Assembly: GCF_027706745.1 (NCBI RefSeq)
Contig: NZ_JAQFWP010000047.1
Span: forward strand, 1-54,939
Origin: Nocardiopsis suaedae
GTDB taxonomy: Bacteria; Actinomycetota; Actinomycetes; Streptosporangiales; Streptosporangiaceae
Length of the DNA stretch: 54,939 nt
Direction: 5' to 3'
Positions 1-53,853 of the stretch are shown one piece after another. Each line of letters starts with the position of its first letter. Position 1 is the stretch's first letter. Both the position numbers and the translations under genes were made by a program. Below the pieces are notes generated by a model, which saw nothing but the letters and a program-made list of their open reading frames with translations, was not told the DNA's origin and did no database searches.

Positions 1-363
1 CCTACCCGCCCGGACCGCGAGGGGCCCGCCGGACGGCAGGCAGGCCCGGGGAACCACCCCGCTCACTCCGTCGCCGCCATTCACGGTGACCACGCACGCG
101 CCGGGCGGCCGACAGCGCTGCAGGAGGAGCGTCAGCCTTATGTCCTTGCCGACCACACCGTCACCACCTACACGCCCGCCGCTCGGCTGATGTCCGTGAG
201 TGGGGGCCTGCCGAACCCGGCTCGGGAGGGGGTGGACTGGTGGCGGGCGGCCCTGGGAAAACGTCCCCGCTTGCGCCTTTGCCCCCGATATACGAATGTG
301 GGACCGCCATCGGCGGCCCCGCACCTGGGTGGGCGGTGACTCCCCTTCAGGGATTCACTACCC
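1..363. other. No supported gene left of sepH
   Basis: This is the window edge. One plus-strand frame stays open from base 1 to about 339, but it has no convincing start, no ribosome binding site and weak third-position GC bias. It could be the tail of a gene cut by the window, but I would not call one. The last part is the region downstream of sepH, where I see no clear terminator hairpin. Confidence 0.4.
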
Positions 364-1989
364 CTACTCCGGCTTCTTGGATCCGAACATGATCTCGTCC
401 CACGACGGGACCGATGCGCGGCGGCCTCGCCCCTTCTTCCGGGCTGGCTGGGCTGCCCCGCCTCCGGCGGCCGCGGCAGCCGAGACCGAGTCCTCGGCCC
501 CGCGGCCCTTCTGGTCGTCCTGGTCGGTCGCCCGTGCCGTCACCGGGGTGCGGCCGCGCGGCTCCTGGGGCCGTTCGGCGGGTCTGCGCGGCCCTGCGTC
601 CGGGACGGCGGGCCCCATCGACGGGCGCGGGCGCGCCGTCCGCTCGCCGCGTTCGGGCCGGTCGGGGCGCTCGCCCCGCTCAAGCCGGTCTCCCCGGTCG
701 GGGCGCTCGCCCCGCTCGGGCCGGTCGTCCAGGTCAGCCCGTTCGGGCCGCTCGTGCCGGGGTGCCTCCGCTGCGGGGGCGCCCCGGCGGGCGGGGGTGG
801 AGGGGAGGACGTCGTCCTCTGGGCCACCCCGCTCCGTGCGCTCGGCTGTGCGCTCGGGCATGCGTTCCGCCGTGCGGTCATGCATGCGCTCGGCTGCTCG
901 CTCATGCATGTGCTCGGCCGCGGGCTCTCCCCGCGGGACCGCCCGGTCGGTACCCGGAGCGCCCGGGTCGGCGCCGGGGTAGGCGCGCTCGGCTTCCTGG
1001 GGCACCCGTTCGGGCTCCTGGGCCGGGCGCTCACGTCCCGGGCGCGGGGACGGGGCGCCGGGGAAGGCCGGATCGGCCTCCGGGGCCGCGCGGTCGCGGC
1101 CGGTCCGGCTGAAGGCCCGCTCGGTCTCGGTCAGTGCGCGCTCGGCCGGTGCCGTGTGGGCCCGGGCCGCAGGCCGCTCGGCGGGTCCGGCCGGGGCCGC
1201 GTCCTCCCGGTCGGCGGCCGGGGGCGCCTCCGCCGGGGGCGGGGCCGGGTGCTGCGGGGGGTCGGCCGGGGCCTGCGCGGAACGCTGCGGGGCGGGCTCC
1301 TCGGCCCCGGGTCTGGCCAGCGGCCCGTCGGCCCGGGCGGCGGGCTCGGGCGCCCCCTGGCGGCGCGGCACGAACGGGGTGACCGTCGCCCCGCCGTCCC
1401 CGGACACCCCGCCCGCGGACGGGTCGGAGAAGCGCGCCGCCTCGTCGTCGACCGGGACGACCGTGCGCCGCCGCGGCTCGAACACCCAGTGCGCCAGGCG
1501 CTCCTGCCCGTCCAGCAGGAAGGCCAGCTTCACGTGCCAGCTTCCGTCCTCGCGCTTCCAGGCGTCCCAGACCGCCTCGCCGGTCTCCAGCTGGTGCGGC
1601 CCCACCCGTTCGGAGACCAGGTCGCCCAGCGCGGGGCCGGGCGCGGTGTCCCCGGGACCGCGTACGGAGGCCCGCTGCGCCTGCTGCGCCATGAACTCGC
1701 GCTCCTGCAGGACCGGGCCTTCGAACCAGCGGACGCGCTCGATGGGGATGCCAGCGAGCTCGGCGATCGCCTCCGCCGTCTCTCCGGAGCGGATCCGGGC
1801 CTGGATTTCCTTGGGGCGCAACGGATTCTCCACTTCGATCTCGTACTGGCCGAGCCGGGAGAACTGGCCGCGGACGGCGGCGCGGAGACGGTCGTCGACG
1901 GGCAGCGTGAAGCGGGTACCGCGGCCGGCGCTCGCCAGCACCAGGTAGGTGCCGTCCTCGCTCACGGCCACGAGGCGAAGCTCCTGCAT
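364..1989 (-). CDS. sepH: Septation protein SepH (DUF3071)
   Basis: The 541-aa product matches SepH, the actinobacterial cytoplasmic protein that binds FtsZ and promotes its assembly at sporulation and vegetative septa. The N-terminal ~110 residues are the conserved DUF3071/helix-turn-helix region, beginning MQELRLVAVSEDGTYL. The C-terminus carries the family tail motif RRASVPSWDEIMFG. The ~300 residues between are a disordered linker rich in Pro, Arg, Glu and Asp with short degenerate repeats (ERPERGERPDR, AERMHDRTAERMPER). The protein is longer than the roughly 340 aa usual in Streptomyces, and the extra length is linker. The start is the ATG at 1989, preceded by AGGGAGG at good spacing. 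The frame stays open far upstream only because of GC bias. The gene is divergent from the 2485 gene. Confidence 0.93.
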   Translation of the reverse strand: MQELRLVAVSEDGTYLVLASAGRGTRFTLPVDDRLRAAVRGQFSRLGQYEIEVENPLRPKEIQARIRSGETAEAIAELAGIPIERVRWFEGPVLQEREFMAQQAQRASVRGPGDTAPGPALGDLVSERVGPHQLETGEAVWDAWKREDGSWHVKLAFLLDGQERLAHWVFEPRRRTVVPVDDEAARFSDPSAGGVSGDGGATVTPFVPRRQGAPEPAARADGPLARPGAEEPAPQRSAQAPADPPQHPAPPPAEAPPAADREDAAPAGPAERPAARAHTAPAERALTETERAFSRTGRDRAAPEADPAFPGAPSPRPGRERPAQEPERVPQEAERAYPGADPGAPGTDRAVPRGEPAAEHMHERAAERMHDRTAERMPERTAERTERGGPEDDVLPSTPARRGAPAAEAPRHERPERADLDDRPERGERPDRGDRLERGERPDRPERGERTARPRPSMGPAVPDAGPRRPAERPQEPRGRTPVTARATDQDDQKGRGAEDSVSAAAAAGGGAAQPARKKGRGRRASVPSWDEIMFGSKKPE

Positions 1990-2484
1990 CGCCCTCCCTT
2001 TCGCGCTTCCCGTCGAGGGTGGGTCCTCGGCCATCCCCCGCGTTCCCAGTCTGTTCGGCATCCGGGTGTTCGGCCAGTACCCCGCCCGGCATGTCCGAAC
2101 CGTGGGCCTCCGTGCGCCGGCCACCGGCGCCCGGGCGTGCCCAGAGCCAATCTTGGCATGTGGGAGGGGGCGTGCGGCGGGTGCGCTCCGGTCGTCGGTC
2201 GGCGTCCTCCTGCGGGTGATGCTAACCCGCGCGCCCTCTGCGGACCATGCGACCGGCGCCGGGTGTCGGCACGGCCGGGCGGTGCGCACGCCAAACCGAC
2301 ACGCGCACCGTGACCGCAGGGTGATGTATTCAATGCCGCGCCTTAACAAGAGCTTAGATGGGATTCGCGTAGGTTGTCCGGATATGGGTCGGGAGTCGGG
2401 CGCCGCAGGGGGCGGCGCCGACCGGCCCGGACCCAGCGATCCGACGGGGGAGCGCCGCCGTGCGCGGCGTACAGAGGGGGGAGG
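1990..2484. promoter_or_regulatory. Divergent promoter region of sepH and the 2485 gene
   Basis: This 495-bp gap separates two divergent genes. Near its right end lies a relatively AT-rich patch (about 2320-2375, with CTTAACAAG and TTAGATG) followed by TAGGTT at 2370-2375. TAGGTT would serve as a -10 box for the plus-strand gene and give a leader of roughly 100 nt. No clear -35 box is visible. I see no RNA gene or small ORF with a ribosome binding site here. Confidence 0.4.
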
Positions 2485-3642
2485 ATGGCCGAGCCCGATG
2501 AGGGCGCGCGCCATGGCGCGCGCATGCGTGCCGCCGCCGATGGGGGCGGCGGCGACAGTGACACGAACGGCACCACGGACCCCGAGGGCGGGGCCGACGG
2601 CGGCCGCCGCCTCAACCTGAGCATGCCGCAGGTGGTCGCGGGCGGTGTGGCCACCCTGACGGCCGCCACCGCCGCGTCGTTCATCGGCGTCTACGGCACG
2701 ATCTTCGGCGCCGCCGTCATGAGTGTGCTCAGCACCGCGGGCACCGCCATCGCCCAGCACTGGCTGGAGCGCAGCCAGGACAAGGCCAAGGAGGCGGCGG
2801 CCCGCGCCGGGATGACCCTGCACGGCGCACGCATGCAGGGCGCGGCCCGCGCGGCCGCCGGGGGCCGCGGGGGCGCCTCCCGGACGGCCGCGGCCGGATC
2901 CGGCCACCGACCGGCGGACGGCCCCGAGGGCGCGCCCGACGCGACCGATGGTCCCGACGCGCCCACACAGGCGTTCGGCGGTGTCGGAGACCCCGACGCC
3001 ACCCGCGCCCTTCCCAGCCTTTCCGGCGACACGCTCGACGGTGAGGACGGCGGCGGGGCCGAGGACGAGCGCGGCTGGTGGCAGCGGTACAAGATGCTGA
3101 TCATCCCGGCCGCCGTCGTGTTCGTCGGCGTCATGCTGGTGATCCTGGTCTTCGAACTGCTGACCGGCCGGAGCCTGAGCGACACCGTGCACGGCCGCAC
3201 CGACCACTCGTCGCCGACCCTCCTCGGCGGCGCCTCCCAGTCCCAGCAGGAGCCCGACGGGACCGTGCAGCCGACGCCCGGCACCGGCGAGGGCGGGCAG
3301 CAGGAGACCGGCGGCCCGGACGGGACCGACGGGGTCGAGCCCACGCCCGGCACCGAGGGCACCGACGGGTCCGACGGGTCCGACGGCCAGACCGGCGGCG
3401 ACGGCACCGAGAACGGCACCGATGAAGGGACCGGCGGTGACACCGGCACCGGTGGCGACACCGGCGGCGACACCGGCAGCGGTACCGAGGACGGGTCGGA
3501 CACCGGCGGCGGCACCGGAGACGGCACCGGCTCGGAAGACGGCGGCTCCGTCGGCGGATCCGGAGGCTCGGGCCAGAGCGGCACCGGCGACCAGCAGCAG
3601 GACCCGCAGCGGTCGGTGCCCGAGAGCGGCGCCTCGCCCTGA
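2485..3642 (+). CDS. Membrane protein with Gly/Asp/Thr-rich C-terminal tail
   Basis: The protein has 385 aa and an unknown function. The layout is a polar N-terminus, a hydrophobic stretch at about residues 48-80 (VVAGGVATLTAATAASF), a basic/Ala-rich cytoplasmic segment, a strong transmembrane helix near residues 200-220 (MLIIPAAVVFVGVMLVILVF), then a ~165-residue low-complexity tail made of Gly, Asp, Thr, Ser and Glu repeats such as GGDTGTGGDTGGDTGSG. The tail probably lies outside the membrane and could span the cell wall. The ATG at 2485 directly follows AGGGGGGAGG. An upstream TTG in frame (2374) was not chosen because it lacks a ribosome binding site. The gene is convergent with the flavoenzyme at 3751, with a strong terminator between them. 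Confidence 0.75.
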   Translation: MAEPDEGARHGARMRAAADGGGGDSDTNGTTDPEGGADGGRRLNLSMPQVVAGGVATLTAATAASFIGVYGTIFGAAVMSVLSTAGTAIAQHWLERSQDKAKEAAARAGMTLHGARMQGAARAAAGGRGGASRTAAAGSGHRPADGPEGAPDATDGPDAPTQAFGGVGDPDATRALPSLSGDTLDGEDGGGAEDERGWWQRYKMLIIPAAVVFVGVMLVILVFELLTGRSLSDTVHGRTDHSSPTLLGGASQSQQEPDGTVQPTPGTGEGGQQETGGPDGTDGVEPTPGTEGTDGSDGSDGQTGGDGTENGTDEGTGGDTGTGGDTGGDTGSGTEDGSDTGGGTGDGTGSEDGGSVGGSGGSGQSGTGDQQQDPQRSVPESGASP

Positions 3643-3690
3643 CGCGCCGCACCCACAGGCGAGCCCCTCATCGCCGACCCGAGCACGCAT

Positions 3691-3728
3691 GAGGCCCCGC
3701 CCGGACCGAGAGGTCCGGGCGGGGCCTC
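3691..3728. terminator. Bidirectional terminator hairpin
   Basis: A perfect 17-bp stem (GAGGCCCCGCCCGGACC and its complement) encloses a GAGA loop, between two convergent genes ending at 3642 and 3751. There is no U-tract, as is common in high-GC actinomycetes. Confidence 0.85.
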
Positions 3729-3750
3729 ACCCGCGCCCGACGACCGCCCC

Positions 3751-5052
3751 TCAGGGCCCGAACACGCGCTCCGTATAGGCGTTGGCGAACCGGCGCTCGG
3801 GGTCCATCCGCTCGCGGACCTCCATCGCGTCCCCGAACCTCGGGTACACCCGCTCCAGGTACGACCGGTCCTTCGTGTGCATCTTCCCCCAGTGCGGCCG
3901 CCCCTCCGCGGCCGTGAACACCGCCTCGGCGTCGGCGAAGTAGCGCTGGTACGGCGCCCCCTTGTACACGTGCACCGCCACGTACGCGGTCTCCCGCCCG
4001 TACGCCGTCGACAGCCACACGTCATCGGCGGGCGCGAAGCGCACCTCCACGGGGAAGCTGATCCGGTGGCCGCCCCGGTCCACCAGCGACCGCAGCTCCC
4101 GCAGCACCCCCGGCAGCTCCTGCGCCGGGACCGCGTACTCCATCTCCACGAACTTCACCCGCCGCGGCGACGCGAACACCTTGTACGAGGTGTCCGTGTA
4201 CTCCCGCGCCGAAAGCGCCCGCGCGCTCACCTGGTTGATGGCCGGGATCGCCGACGGCAGCGCCCGGCCCGCCCGGTTGACCCGCTCGAACAGCGTGTTG
4301 GACAGGAACTCGTCGTCCAGCCACGCCTTGAACGGCGCCAGCGGCCGGGCCGGCCCCTCCACCGGGTTGTTGCGTTTGGTGTTGGCCATCCCGGTGTGCG
4401 GGAACCAGAAGAACTCGAAGTGCTCGTTCCCGGCCCGCAGCTCCGGCAGCCGGTCGAGCACCTCGTCCACGCGCATCGGCTCCTCGCGCGCGTGCAGCAG
4501 GAACGAGGGGCGCACCGCCATGGTCATCGCGGTGACGACGCCGAACGCCCCCAGGCCGACCCGCGCCGCGCCGAACAGGTCCGGGTCGTCGGCCGCCGAG
4601 CAGCGCACCGCCTCCCCGTCGGCGCGCACCAGCTCCATGCCGACCACCTGTGAGGCGAGCCCGCCGGTGGTGCGCCCGGTGCCGTGCGTCCCGGTCTGGA
4701 TCGCCCCGGCCAGGGTCTGCACCGCGATGTCGCCCATGTTGGCCAGCGCCGCCCCGTGCCCCGCCAGCGCGGTGTTCAGGTCGCTGAGCACCATGCCCGC
4801 GTCCGCCTCGCCGGTGCCCGCCTCCAGGTCGACCGCGCGCAGCCGGTTCAGCGCGGTGGGGGAGAGCATCACCCCGTCGGTGACGGCGGCGTCGGTGAAG
4901 GAGTGCCCGGCGCCGACCATCCGCACCGGCAGGCCCCGCCCGGCGGCCGAGCGCACCGCGCCGGCGACGTCGGCGGCCCCGTTGGGGGTGGCCGTGGTGG
5001 TCGGGAGGGCCTCGTGCGTGCCGGACCATGTGCGCCACATCACGTTCGTCAT
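3751..5052 (-). CDS. FAD-linked oxidase, D-arabinono-1,4-lactone oxidase family
   Basis: The 433-aa product belongs to the L-gulono/D-arabinono-lactone oxidase family of FAD-binding type-4 oxidoreductases. The N-terminal FAD domain has RMVGAGHSFTD near residues 44-54, where the His is the usual covalent flavin site, and QTGTHGTG near residue 120. The C-terminal ALO domain ends with the family signature HWGKMH followed by YPRF. It probably oxidises a sugar lactone or a related polyol, and the substrate cannot be read from sequence. The ATG at 5052 starts MTNVMWRTWSG. The gene is divergent from hemH with only 83 bp between. Confidence 0.85.
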   Translation of the reverse strand: MTNVMWRTWSGTHEALPTTTATPNGAADVAGAVRSAAGRGLPVRMVGAGHSFTDAAVTDGVMLSPTALNRLRAVDLEAGTGEADAGMVLSDLNTALAGHGAALANMGDIAVQTLAGAIQTGTHGTGRTTGGLASQVVGMELVRADGEAVRCSAADDPDLFGAARVGLGAFGVVTAMTMAVRPSFLLHAREEPMRVDEVLDRLPELRAGNEHFEFFWFPHTGMANTKRNNPVEGPARPLAPFKAWLDDEFLSNTLFERVNRAGRALPSAIPAINQVSARALSAREYTDTSYKVFASPRRVKFVEMEYAVPAQELPGVLRELRSLVDRGGHRISFPVEVRFAPADDVWLSTAYGRETAYVAVHVYKGAPYQRYFADAEAVFTAAEGRPHWGKMHTKDRSYLERVYPRFGDAMEVRERMDPERRFANAYTERVFGP

Positions 5053-50218: not shown

Positions 50219-51049
50219 CTATACGTCGACCTTCATCGGCTCCTTGCTGGGCTCGGGCATGCCCGTGTCCGGCTCCATGGTGATGCCGAGCTGGGTCGCG
50301 CCGGACATCCCCTTGACCATGCCGGTCAGCATGCCCTGGCCGTCCTCCTCCAGCATCCCGGCCGAGCGCATGCCGTCCCCATCGACGTACCAGAGCTGGT
50401 AGGCCTTGCCTTCGGGGGCGGGCGGCAGCCCCTTGACCATGATCATCATCGTGTCGTGGTCCCCGGAGGCGAACACGGTGGCGTTGGCCTCGCTCTCGGA
50501 GACGGGCCGGTCCATCCTCTCGGTGCCCGGCGCCGCCAGCAGCGCCTCCACCTCGGCCGTGTGCGCCTGAAGGTCGTCCATGCGCCGCGCCTGGTCGACC
50601 GTGACCGCGCCCAGCGCGACGGCGACCGCGACCGCGGCGGCCGCCACGGCCCACGGCAGGCCGCGCACCACCCGGGACCGGAACGGGATCACGGTCGCGC
50701 CGGGGCCACCGCCGTCGCCGTCTCCGTCGGAGGGGCGGCCGTCGCCGTCGGAGGCGCTGCCGCCGGACCGGGCGCCGGTCCCGGCTTCGGAACCGGCCTC
50801 GGCGGCCTTCGGCGGGAGCTGGCGGGTGCGCGCGGCCTCCGCCTTCACCTTCCCCCACAGGCCCTCCGGCGGGCCGACCGCCTCCGCGGTGCCCAGCCGT
50901 GCCGCCGTCTCCCGGAAGTCCCGCAGGTCGCGGCGGCAGTCCTCGCACTCCTCCAGGTGCGCCTCGACCTCGGCCCGCTCGTCGCCCTCCAGCGCGTCCA
51001 GCGCGTACGCCGCCGTCAGGCCGTGCACGTCGTACCCCCGCGGGCTCAC
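50219..51049 (-). CDS. rskA: Anti-sigma-K factor RskA, methionine-rich sensor domain
   Basis: The 276-aa membrane anti-sigma factor has a cytoplasmic ZAS motif His31-x3-Cys35-x2-Cys38 (HLEECEDC), a linker, one helix (PWAVAAAAVAVAVALGAVTV, about 134-153) and an extracytoplasmic RskA domain with AYQLWYVDGDG. It should bind SigK and release it on regulated proteolysis. The external domain is rich in methionine, 13 in roughly 122 residues (TMMIM, GMLTGMVKGM, PDTGMPEP), well above what I expect for RskA. The GTG at 51049 overlaps sigK by 4 bp. Confidence 0.88.
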   Translation of the reverse strand: MSPRGYDVHGLTAAYALDALEGDERAEVEAHLEECEDCRRDLRDFRETAARLGTAEAVGPPEGLWGKVKAEAARTRQLPPKAAEAGSEAGTGARSGGSASDGDGRPSDGDGDGGGPGATVIPFRSRVVRGLPWAVAAAAVAVAVALGAVTVDQARRMDDLQAHTAEVEALLAAPGTERMDRPVSESEANATVFASGDHDTMMIMVKGLPPAPEGKAYQLWYVDGDGMRSAGMLEEDGQGMLTGMVKGMSGATQLGITMEPDTGMPEPSKEPMKVDV

Positions 51050-51636
51050 GCCTCCACCCCCAAGCAGTCGCGCAGCCGGATCAGCCCGTCCCGGAGCCTG
51101 CCCTTGACCGTGGTCAGCGGGACCTTCAGCGCGGCGGCCGCCTGGCGCTGGGTGTACCCGGCGTAGTAGGTCAGCCGCACCGCCTCGCGCTGCAGGCCGG
51201 TCAGCCGCCCCAGGCACCGCCGGACCCGCTCGCGCTCCAAGCGGTGCTCGACCGCCTCGGGCACCTCGTCGGCCGGCGTCTGCTGCGGCTCGGCCCGGCC
51301 CACGCGCGAGGTCCGGTCGGCCGACGCCTGCTCCGAGCGGACCCGGTCGACCGCCCGCCGGTGGGCGATGGTCAGCACCCACGACCGCACGCCCCCGGCC
51401 GCGGCGTCGTACCGCGCGGCCTGGCGCCACACCTCCACGAACACCTCCTGCGCGACCTCCTCGGCCTGGGCGTGGTCGAGCAGCACCCGTGCCGCGGTCC
51501 CGAACACGGGACCGGCCAGCTCCCGGTACACCCCCTCGAACGCCTCCATATCGCCCAGCGAGGCCCTGGCCAGCAGCTCGCCGAGCCCGTCGGCGCCCGT
51601 GCGGCCCGATGCCCGCGACGGCAGCGCTTCGTCCAC
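51046..51636 (-). CDS. sigK: ECF sigma factor SigK
   Basis: The 196-aa sigma factor has region 2 (VYRELAGPVFGTAARVLLD ... EVAQEVFVEVWRQAARYD) and region 4 (GYTQRQAAAALKVPLTTVKG). It has exactly two cysteines, Cys141 and Cys191, 50 residues apart. This is the same spacing as the Cys133-Cys183 disulfide reported to make Mycobacterium tuberculosis SigK redox-sensitive. It pairs with the overlapping rskA. The GTG at 51636 has GGGAGAGG at 5 nt. It is divergent from the molybdoenzyme gene, which is probably a target. Confidence 0.88.
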   Translation of the reverse strand: MDEALPSRASGRTGADGLGELLARASLGDMEAFEGVYRELAGPVFGTAARVLLDHAQAEEVAQEVFVEVWRQAARYDAAAGGVRSWVLTIAHRRAVDRVRSEQASADRTSRVGRAEPQQTPADEVPEAVEHRLERERVRRCLGRLTGLQREAVRLTYYAGYTQRQAAAALKVPLTTVKGRLRDGLIRLRDCLGVEA

Positions 51637-51747
51637 CCGACCTCTCCCGTCCCTCACGTCTTCGGCTCCGTCATCCTGCCATTCGGAGCGGGCGGCGGGG
51701 AGGCGACGCCGCACCTGTGGAAAGCCGCGCCGACCGGTGCGGGAAAA

Positions 51748-51766
51748 AACTTCGGAGAACTTCGGA
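51748..51766 (+). promoter_or_regulatory. Direct repeat AACTTCGGA in the sigK/molybdoenzyme gap
   Basis: AACTTCGGA occurs twice with a 10-bp period, just after an A6 run (GGGAAAAAAC), 54-72 bp before the molybdoenzyme start. CTTCGGA also occurs upstream of the lipoprotein gene (about 53483-53489). It may mark a shared SigK promoter or activator site. Confidence 0.4.
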
Positions 51767-51819
51767 CGGGGCGGTCGCCCGCGGCGGCCCCGCTCCGAAG
51801 GAGGGGTGTGTCGGAAGCG

Positions 51820-53400
51820 ATGAAACAGATTCCCCGGTGGGCGGCGGCGGCGTGCGGCCTGGTGGCCGGCGGCGCGGGACTGGCGGCGGCGGAGGCGGCC
51901 GCGGTGCCCTTCGGCCCGAGGGCCTCGCCCGTGCAGGCGGTGGGCGCCGCGACGATCGACCTGGCCCCGCGGCCGCTGAAGGAGTTCGCGGTGGCGGCCT
52001 TCGGCACCGCCGACAAGGCCGTGCTGCTGGTGGGCATCGGTGTGGTGCTGGCCGTGTTCGCGGCGGCGCTGGGCATCGCGGCGCGCGGCCGCCGGTGGGC
52101 GGCGGGCGCGGGGGCCGGGGTACTGGCGCTGGTCGGTGCGGTGGCCGCCTTCACCCGGCCCGACGCCGGACCCCTGGACATCCTGCCCGCGCTCGTCGGC
52201 GGGGTGGTGGCCTATGTGGCGCTGGTGATGCTGATGAACGCCGCCGGCGACGCCCCGGACGCCCCTCAGGCACCGGCCCCCGAGGAGACCGCGGAACGCC
52301 GGGGCTTCGACCGTCGGCGCTTCGTCCTCATCGCGGGCGCGGCCGCAGCCGCGTCGGCGGCGGTCGGCACGGGGGCCGGGGTCTACAGCAGGACGAGCGC
52401 GGGCAGCGCGGCGCAGAGCAGGGACTTCGCCCTGCCCAAGCCCGCATCCCCGGCGCCGCCCGTCCCCGACGGGGCCGACCTGGAGATCGAGGGCCTGGAG
52501 TCCTTCTTCACTCCGCCCGGGGAGTTCTACCGGATCGACACCGCCCTGTCGGTCCCGCGCGTCGACGCCACGACCTGGCGCCTGCGCGTGCACGGCGCCG
52601 GGGTGGAGGAGCGCGAGTACACGTTCCCCCAGTTGCTGGAGCGGGGCGACATCGTCGAGCGCGACGTCACCCTGGCGTGCGTGTCCAACCAGGTCGGCGG
52701 CGGCTACATCGGCAACGCGCGCTGGATCGGCGTGCCGCTGGCCGAGCTCCTGCGCGAGGCCGGGGTGCGGCCGCCCTCCGAGGGCGGGCCGGCCGACCAG
52801 CTCGTGTCCCGGTCCGACGACGGCATGACCATCGGCACCCCGGTCGAGACGGTCATGGACGGGCGCGACGCCATGCTCGCCCTGGGCATGAACGGGCGCC
52901 CGCTGGCGCCCGAGCACGGCTTCCCGGTGCGGATGGTGGTGCCCGGCCTGTACGGGTACGTGTCGGCGTGCAAGTGGATCACCGAGATCGAGCTGACCAC
53001 GTTCGACGCGTTCGACGCCTACTGGGTGCCGCGCGGGTGGGCCGCCAAGGCGCCGATCAAACTCCAGTCGCGCATCGACACCCCGCGCGACGGCGCGTCC
53101 GTCGGCGAGGGCGGTGCGGGGGTGACCATCGCCGGGGTGGCCTGGGCGCAGCACGTGGGCGTCGACGGGGTGCAGGTGCGCATCGACGGCGGCGAGTGGC
53201 GCGACGCGCGCTTGGCGGAGGAGGCGACCGAGGACACCTGGCGCCAGTGGGTCTTCGACTGGGAGGACGCCGAACCCGGCGAGCACACGGTGAGCGTGCG
53301 CGCGATGGGCCGGGACGGCGAGGTGCAGACCGCCGACGAGGCGCCCCCGGCGCCCGACGGTGCGACCGGGCACCACACGATCTCGGTCTCGGTGGGGTAG
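51820..53400 (+). CDS. Membrane-anchored molybdopterin oxidoreductase, sulfite oxidase fold
   Basis: The 526-aa protein has about four N-terminal helices (residues ~5-25, 64-86, 93-112, 122-145), then a twin-arginine-like segment DRRRFVLIAGAAAAASA (about 166-182), and an external SUOX-fold domain. The molybdenum ligand is Cys287 in TLACVSNQVGGGYIG, with RMVVPGLYGYVSACKWI and a C-terminal dimerisation domain (DGVQVRIDGGEW). The fold includes sulfite oxidase and the periplasmic methionine sulfoxide reductase MsrP (YedY). The ATG at 51820 is used. The in-frame GTG at 51808 is closer to the GGAGG and is also possible. It is flanked by sigK and a Met-rich lipoprotein gene. Confidence 0.85.
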   Translation: MKQIPRWAAAACGLVAGGAGLAAAEAAAVPFGPRASPVQAVGAATIDLAPRPLKEFAVAAFGTADKAVLLVGIGVVLAVFAAALGIAARGRRWAAGAGAGVLALVGAVAAFTRPDAGPLDILPALVGGVVAYVALVMLMNAAGDAPDAPQAPAPEETAERRGFDRRRFVLIAGAAAAASAAVGTGAGVYSRTSAGSAAQSRDFALPKPASPAPPVPDGADLEIEGLESFFTPPGEFYRIDTALSVPRVDATTWRLRVHGAGVEEREYTFPQLLERGDIVERDVTLACVSNQVGGGYIGNARWIGVPLAELLREAGVRPPSEGGPADQLVSRSDDGMTIGTPVETVMDGRDAMLALGMNGRPLAPEHGFPVRMVVPGLYGYVSACKWITEIELTTFDAFDAYWVPRGWAAKAPIKLQSRIDTPRDGASVGEGGAGVTIAGVAWAQHVGVDGVQVRIDGGEWRDARLAEEATEDTWRQWVFDWEDAEPGEHTVSVRAMGRDGEVQTADEAPPAPDGATGHHTISVSVG

Positions 53401-53432
53401 CGGGGAGAGCGGAACCGGCCCGCACGAGACCG

Positions 53433-53455
53433 GGCGCCCTGGGAAGCGGGGCGCC
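53433..53455 (+). terminator. Hairpin after the molybdoenzyme gene
   Basis: A 7-bp stem GGCGCCC / GGGCGCC with a 9-nt loop lies 32 nt after the stop. It could end or attenuate transcription into the lipoprotein gene. Confidence 0.45.
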
Positions 53456-53529
53456 GTGCGATGGAGCGATCAGACCGATCGGCTTCGGAATACCGAGTGA
53501 TCGAGAGAAATCGAGAGAAGGAGAGAACG

Positions 53530-53853
53530 ATGAGCGAGCGTCCCCTGAGCCTTCTGCGCCGCCTGGTCGCCGCCGGTGGCATCGCGTCGGTGGTGCTGCT
53601 GTCCGGTGCCGCCGCCTGTGACAACTCGGGCGATGGAGCGGAGAACACGGGCCAGGAAGAGTCGCAGGAAGGCGACGAGATGTCCGAGGACATGGAGGAA
53701 GGCGACTCCATGGAGGACGAGGGCATGGAAGGCGAAGGGATGGAGGACGGCGAGGAGAGCGGCGGCTCCATGGACGAGGAGATGGAGGGCGAAGAGGGCG
53801 GCATGCAGGACGAGGAGATGGGCGACGAGGAAATGCAGGAGGACGAGGGCTGA
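53530..53853 (+). CDS. Acidic methionine-rich lipoprotein
   Basis: The 107-aa precursor has a lipoprotein signal peptide (RRLVAAGGIASVVLLSGAAAC) with the acylated Cys at residue 30. The mature 78 residues contain ten Met, only acidic, Gly, Ser, Gln and Asn side chains otherwise, no Lys or Arg, and repeats such as EDEGMEGEGMEDG and EEMGDEEMQ. It should be a disordered surface chain. Met-rich acidic chains can bind Cu(I) or act as oxidant sinks through Met sulfoxide. Its position after a MsrP-fold enzyme favours the second. The ATG at 53530 follows AAGGAGAG. Confidence 0.82.
   Translation: MSERPLSLLRRLVAAGGIASVVLLSGAAACDNSGDGAENTGQEESQEGDEMSEDMEEGDSMEDEGMEGEGMEDGEESGGSMDEEMEGEEGGMQDEEMGDEEMQEDEG

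Follow-up and report, generated by a model that had tools for sequence, protein, structure and literature searches.

We describe a four-gene locus of Nocardiopsis suaedae (assembly GCF_027706745.1) that very probably forms a single functional unit in which methionine (Met) is the chemistry under selection. The locus lies at positions 50219..53853 of the window, by which we mean the whole 54,939-nt stretch of contig NZ_JAQFWP010000047.1 that was analyzed. It comprises sigK, encoding an extracytoplasmic function (ECF) sigma factor (51046..51636, minus strand), and rskA, encoding its membrane anti-sigma factor (50219..51049, minus strand), divergent from a gene for a 526-aa molybdenum oxidoreductase of the SUOX fold (51820..53400, plus strand). 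A gene for a Met-rich acidic lipoprotein of 107 aa (53530..53853, plus strand) follows 129 nt past SUOX with no gene between. The GTG start of rskA overlaps the sigK stop; the start codons of sigK and SUOX are uncertain, with sigK taken to begin at GTG 51636 and SUOX at either ATG 51820 or GTG 51808. The first-pass annotation of this window had described both the gene arrangement and the lipoprotein composition correctly, as all four genes lie where it placed them and the mature lipoprotein of 78 residues does contain ten Met and no Lys, Arg, or His.

The Met content of the lipoprotein is beyond chance, because at least ten Met in 78 residues has P = 5e-7 against a background of 1.58%, taken from 271 gene-like open reading frames within a 400-kb portion of one related genome. 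Conservation of the trait is the stronger evidence. Across 120 pairs of lipoproteins with 60% identity or more (34 chains), scored with a Met match weighted like a Glu match, Met is retained in 88% of cells and is surpassed only by the lipid Cys; the values for other residues are 77% for Val, 71% for Glu, 64% for Asp, 57% for Ser, and 55% for Gly. The 35 lipoproteins encoded next to SUOX in SigK-containing loci total 349 Met in 2594 residues (13.5%), versus 15 in 908 (1.7%) for 19 related acidic lipoproteins that are not SUOX neighbors and come from the same or SUOX-less genomes (p 2e-8). Three loci (L047, L098, and L100) carry a second acidic lipoprotein in tandem after the Met-rich one, some 580-720 nt past the SUOX stop, and these second copies are free of Met (0/32, 0/34, and 0/38, respectively).

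Matches to the SUOX protein occur in 251 of 297 genomes from the order at a threshold (E <= 1e-20) that counts weak homologues, and in 148 of 396 genomes sampled across the phylum at E <= 1e-60. We compiled 183 distinct SUOX genes from 56 named loci and from the own-genome and order searches, including all but three of the further listed matches; the sampling of these loci is uneven. The commonest identified partner is a FAS1 lipoprotein, of the MPT70/MPT83 kind, which is the immediate downstream neighbor in 73 of the 183 loci; the neighbor is a short Met-rich acidic lipoprotein in 34 and something else in another 73, with no data for three. SigK was found inside the distance limit at 33 of the 34 Met-rich loci, 51 of the 73 FAS1 loci, and 9 of the 73 others, the remaining Met-rich locus (L063) being cut by a contig end. 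In a FastTree phylogeny all 34 Met-rich loci fall in a single SUOX clade of 43 rows (support 96; 99 for 42 rows). Within it, with L063 excluded and L008 entered by hand, a lipoprotein of at least 5% Met accompanies 33 of 35 rows with SigK and none of seven without (Fisher 1.3e-6, relatedness ignored). The first-pass annotation had named a lack of co-conservation of enzyme and lipoprotein as grounds for refuting its proposal, and the proposal survived this test.

Of the seven SigK-less rows, four (L029, L045, L090, and L108) have no such lipoprotein and three (L008, L107, and L110) have an acidic lipoprotein with zero to two Met. Searches of the seven stretches with tblastn detected no SigK, and the only trace of RskA is a partial match in L110 (positions 1913-2497; 36% over 223 residues) beside SUOX. 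With a lipoprotein of 2/64 Met and this partial RskA, L110 is apparently a decaying system.

RskA, whose richness in Met the first-pass annotation had missed, provides the second line of evidence. Its extracytoplasmic domain (residues 154-276; 50222..50590, minus strand), predicted to be a beta-sandwich (predicted local distance difference test score, pLDDT, 82.9), contains 13 Met in 123 residues, and residues 1-130 contain none. RskA ectodomains of the clade reach 333/3625 Met (9.2%, n=30) versus 109/5609 (1.9%, n=46) in FAS1-type loci (p 4e-13). Met is not raised in the cytoplasmic half of RskA (0.65% in the clade versus 1.7% in FAS1-type loci) or in SigK (0.46% versus 1.7%), and the catalytic part of SUOX has 1.5% in both groups; genome-wide Met usage can therefore be ruled out as the cause. 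More than 60% of clade rows have Met at RskA positions 157, 178, 202, 215, 219, 227, 232, 244, 248, 264, and 272, and six of these sites (202, 219, 232, 244, 248, and 272) are mostly Leu, Val, or Ile in other RskA proteins. Both proteins pass curated cut-offs: SigK scores 240.5 bits on NF007228 (cut-off 226), and RskA exceeds the cut-offs of PF10099 (94.8 versus 29.4 bits), PF13490 (zf-HC2; 33.3 versus 22.2), PF22618 (RskA_N; 28.5 versus 27), and NF052375 (186.6 versus 100).

The same combination occurs in a second lineage. L155 and L158, counted above among the other neighbors, turned out to carry a Met-rich lipoprotein of different make-up; FAS1 is absent from both, and the short lipoprotein, with MKSGDP/MKSHEP repeats and 11/69 and 9/69 Met, sits between SUOX and SigK-RskA. 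Their RskA ectodomains contain 9.3% and 8.5% Met, respectively. The sister locus L188 retains FAS1 with a linker of 4/31 Met and has an RskA with 8.1% Met. All three share Met at RskA positions 166, 167, 170, 171, 191, 204, 233, 244, and 261, sites mostly unlike those of the main clade, and we read this pattern as convergence.

A SigK-type promoter motif of the form GTCGCC-N15-CCGAA[TCG] faces both ways between sigK and SUOX. In the window, the copy facing sigK (GTCGCC-N15-CCGAAT) occupies 51681..51707 on the minus strand and the copy facing SUOX (GTCGCC-N15-CCGAAG) 51774..51800 on the plus strand; the latter is very near the start codon and overlaps a Shine-Dalgarno-like GGAGG. With up to one mismatch permitted in the first box and a spacing of 14-17, the motif faces sigK in 31 of 33 clade regions and SUOX in 30 of 33, and the strict form does so in 13 and 7, against backgrounds of 6.1% and 1.1% (strict) per 360-nt strand. 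As the motif was derived from these same related sequences, the counts are descriptive and carry no test; its absence from all seven SigK-less clade loci is, in our judgment, the better test. No copy lies just upstream of the lipoprotein gene in the window, so this gene is probably transcribed through from SUOX. The first-pass annotation had cast SigK-RskA as the switch of the system; the shared promoter motif supports a putative co-regulation by SigK.

The enzyme is not of the YedY/MsrP type on which the first-pass annotation had drawn its parallel. It contains an Oxidored_molyb domain (PF00174, 141 bits) followed by an Ig-like C-terminal domain (PF17957), and its model (pLDDT 86.9) predicts N-terminal helices and then a further Tat-like helix after an RRRF motif (RRRFV). 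MsrP (YedY) consists of the catalytic domain alone, with no C-terminal dimerization domain. The SUOX protein scores only 43.4 bits on the MsrP model NF003767 (cut-off 207), and in both profile and fold searches SorA, SoxC, and vertebrate sulfite oxidase are nearest and MsrP is much further; the Foldseek alignments span 344-383 columns for SorA (E about 1e-22) and 187-238 for 1xdq/1xdy (E 7e-9 to 3e-8). The operon, to which the search for MsrQ was confined, encodes no such partner, and in the SUOX protein itself (P0001) Pfam finds no ferric reductase domain and residues 1-165 contain no His. We therefore rejected MsrP as an identification on family score, fold, and domain make-up.

By these tests an ordinary sulfite oxidase was likewise rejected. 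The fold with a dimerization domain and Mo-ligand Cys is shared with the SorA and SoxC sulfite dehydrogenases, Cys287 being invariant in alignment A3. Unlike these enzymes, the protein is membrane-anchored, falls below the cut-offs of the curated sulfite dehydrogenase models (SorA 102/600, SoxC 98/420, and SorT 63/570 bits), and has Trp407, nearly invariant in A3, aligned with the catalytic Tyr236 of SorA. Local alignment confidence at this site is moderate, and the reference structure 2c9x is titled Y236F and has Phe at the aligned position. No function has been assigned to the membrane SUOX family in the literature searched. Methionine sulfoxide reduction is a candidate activity that we infer from the partner genes rather than from the sequence itself.

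The first-pass annotation had drawn its parallel from proteobacteria, and a functioning precedent that includes a Met-rich protein does exist. In Brucella, an ECF16 sigma factor and its anti-sigma factor regulate both an MXKDX protein rich in Met and a system resembling MsrPQ, with induction by hypochlorous acid (HOCl), and a periplasm-exposed Cys of the anti-sigma factor likely detects the signal (PMC8315932). BcrXQP with BcrS/AbcS (ECF16) of Brucella melitensis and its homologue, yedYZ-mrpX of Azospira suillum, contain the same kinds of genes as the present locus, namely those for an ECF sigma factor and membrane anti-sigma factor next to those for a SUOX-fold molybdoenzyme and a short protein rich in Met. 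The parts differ: here the sigma factor is of the SigK type rather than ECF16, the anti-sigma factor is RskA rather than the six-helix DUF1109/NrsF protein of the Brucella system, the enzyme is a sulfite-oxidase-like membrane type rather than MsrP with MsrQ, and the likely sensor residue is Met rather than the Cys of Brucella. In place of an MXKDX protein there is a lipoprotein that reaches 14.9 bits (E 0.02) on TIGR02953 (MrpX / pentapeptide MXKDX), under the cut-off of 41; it has the MrpX-like traits of being short, exported, Met-rich, and encoded with a SUOX-fold enzyme and ECF sigma factor.

The SigK and RskA families are also those of the mycobacterial SigK-RskA system (MPT70/MPT83), from which the present locus differs in having a Met-rich chain where the FAS1 protein would stand and an RskA whose ectodomain is rich in Met. 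A second SUOX locus, of FAS1 type and beyond the view of the first-pass annotation, occurs in the same genome (G000:C95, L214, about 200-4288), with a homologous SUOX (50% identical), SigK, RskA, and a FAS1 lipoprotein. Unlike the window locus, its order is co-directional and its RskA ectodomain has 3/130 Met, all near the C-terminus. According to PMC7509140, what triggers the SigK-RskA cascade is still to be identified, and two SigK cysteines affect SigK activity; SigK of the window has two Cys. We found no account of the present module in Actinomycetota in the literature searched.

We favor oxidation and repair over metal binding as the chemistry of the locus, and consider it fairly probable that the genes constitute a methionine-oxidation response outside the membrane, analogous to MrpX-MsrPQ and built of unrelated or distant parts. 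Met scavenges bleach-like oxidants, and one such as HOCl would oxidize Met residues in the ectodomain of RskA, a number of them at sites occupied by Leu, Val, or Ile in relatives; the beta-sandwich would be destabilized and RskA then proteolyzed. Judging from the motifs, SigK once freed would use GTCGCC-like-N15-CCGAA promoters to transcribe sigK-rskA as well as the SUOX-lipoprotein operon that diverges from it. The tethered, disordered, negatively charged lipoprotein, usually with 9-14 Met per chain, may act as a sacrificial sink, and the membrane-anchored SUOX would reduce the oxidized Met of the lipoprotein, and perhaps that of RskA, thereby recharging the sink and resetting the switch. That RskA senses through Met is suggested by its ectodomain composition, and we put this forward tentatively; we know of no anti-sigma factor previously shown to do so. 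Equally tentative is the full scheme, in which a Met-based RskA sensor, release of SigK, and a non-MsrP SUOX that reduces both sensor and sacrificial lipoprotein evolved at least twice. If true, a Met-rich sensor domain would offer a candidate class of signal for part of the SigK-RskA family, Actinomycetota would be added to the bacteria with a sacrificial-methionine defense, in a version assembled from other parts, and the widespread family of membrane SUOX proteins would gain a likely substrate.

A number of observations weigh against this scheme. In a later, wider set of 99 more distinct SUOX loci, drawn from across the phylum and from the genus to which L155 belongs, a filter-based search found no such lipoprotein directly downstream, and the seven RskA ectodomains measured there contain 0.6-3.3% Met, none above. 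Outside the two Met-rich lineages the Met contents of RskA and partner are uncorrelated (rho 0.16, n=52), and rho falls to -0.01 without L155, L158, and L188. The motif was found upstream of SUOX in none of the three second-lineage loci and none of nine FAS1-type loci scanned (L214 lies outside this set), and L046 and L065 have a Met-rich lipoprotein without the SUOX-ward motif. Enrichment near SUOX was not seen in FAS1 linkers (3.9% Met, n=100, versus 4.3%, n=11, for SUOX-distant ones), and a pooled comparison of how many lipoproteins in the retrieved stretches reach 7.5% Met was not significant (53/145 SUOX-side versus 2/9 others, a small control; p 0.49). The highest Met content among the 19 relatives away from SUOX, 4/34, belongs to L419 in a genome (G091) without a SUOX match in the order survey. 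Two clade rows with SigK are exceptions: L021 has a lipoprotein of 3/81 Met, and the sole lipoprotein of L051 has 0/53 Met, though its RskA ectodomain has 16. The losses of SigK and Met-rich lipoprotein amount to only three to four independent events, which in most pairings all run in the same direction but are too few for significance.

By eye, the L051 lipoprotein is similar to the second copies in L098 and L100, and that of L008 to the second copy in L047; in both loci, therefore, it seems, on a post hoc reading, that the Met-rich gene itself disappeared and was not merely depleted of Met. L051 retains the sigK-ward motif and lacks the SUOX-ward one. A degenerate-looking lipoprotein start is also visible in L051, about 116 nt past the SUOX stop, in the same frame and ahead of the Met-free lipoprotein.

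Other explanations of the locus can be weighed against these data. In a Cu(I)/Ag(I) module, the RskA ectodomain would bind Cu(I) and release SigK, the lipoprotein would chelate metal, and SUOX would repair copper-oxidized Met; we regard this as unlikely. Less likely still is a SUOX that acts as a sulfite or organosulfur dehydrogenase feeding the respiratory chain, with the lipoprotein as a disordered electrostatic spacer whose Met is incidental. Its nearest folds and families (SorA, SoxC, and vertebrate sulfite oxidase) and its C-terminal domain, absent from MsrP, fit such a role, but the scores far under the SorA, SoxC, and SorT cut-offs and the nearly invariant Trp at the SorA Tyr236 position do not, and an incidental Met would not be expected to be the residue best kept after the lipid Cys or to be raised in RskA in the ectodomain only.

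The lipoprotein could instead be a signaling buffer, competing with RskA for oxidant and SUOX and so setting the SigK threshold and shut-off. This would be in keeping with two Met-rich domains predicted on the same membrane face and with the lack of a Met-rich lipoprotein in any of the seven SigK-less clade rows, but L051 pairs a Met-rich RskA with no Met-rich lipoprotein, and we give the buffer little credence. Finally, the genes might be chance neighbors, with compositional drift in high-GC genomes having yielded an acidic tail with Met; the chain is indeed repetitive and of low complexity, and its relatives are acidic too. This explanation is largely refuted by relatives with little Met in the same genomes, tandem copies among them, by the conservation of Met, by the appearance of the trait in two lineages, and by its coupling to RskA, and we consider it highly improbable.

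A few further loci deserve mention beside the oxidation and repair reading. L292 (G621:C6) has a Met-rich acidic lipoprotein (12/80 Met) two genes upstream of SUOX, from 2970 to 2544 nt ahead of its stop codon, with a gene that we read as rhodanese-like between them; SigK was not found there, and the locus is a possible third case. RskA ectodomains of 4.9% and 5.7% Met occur beside SUOX in L171 and L178, where no Met-rich lipoprotein was seen directly downstream. In four loci of distant Actinomycetota (L283, L289, L281, and L080), in whose examined stretches SigK was not found, FAS1 lipoproteins near SUOX carry Met-rich linkers of 12/55, 11/65, 7/50, and 7/51 Met, respectively.

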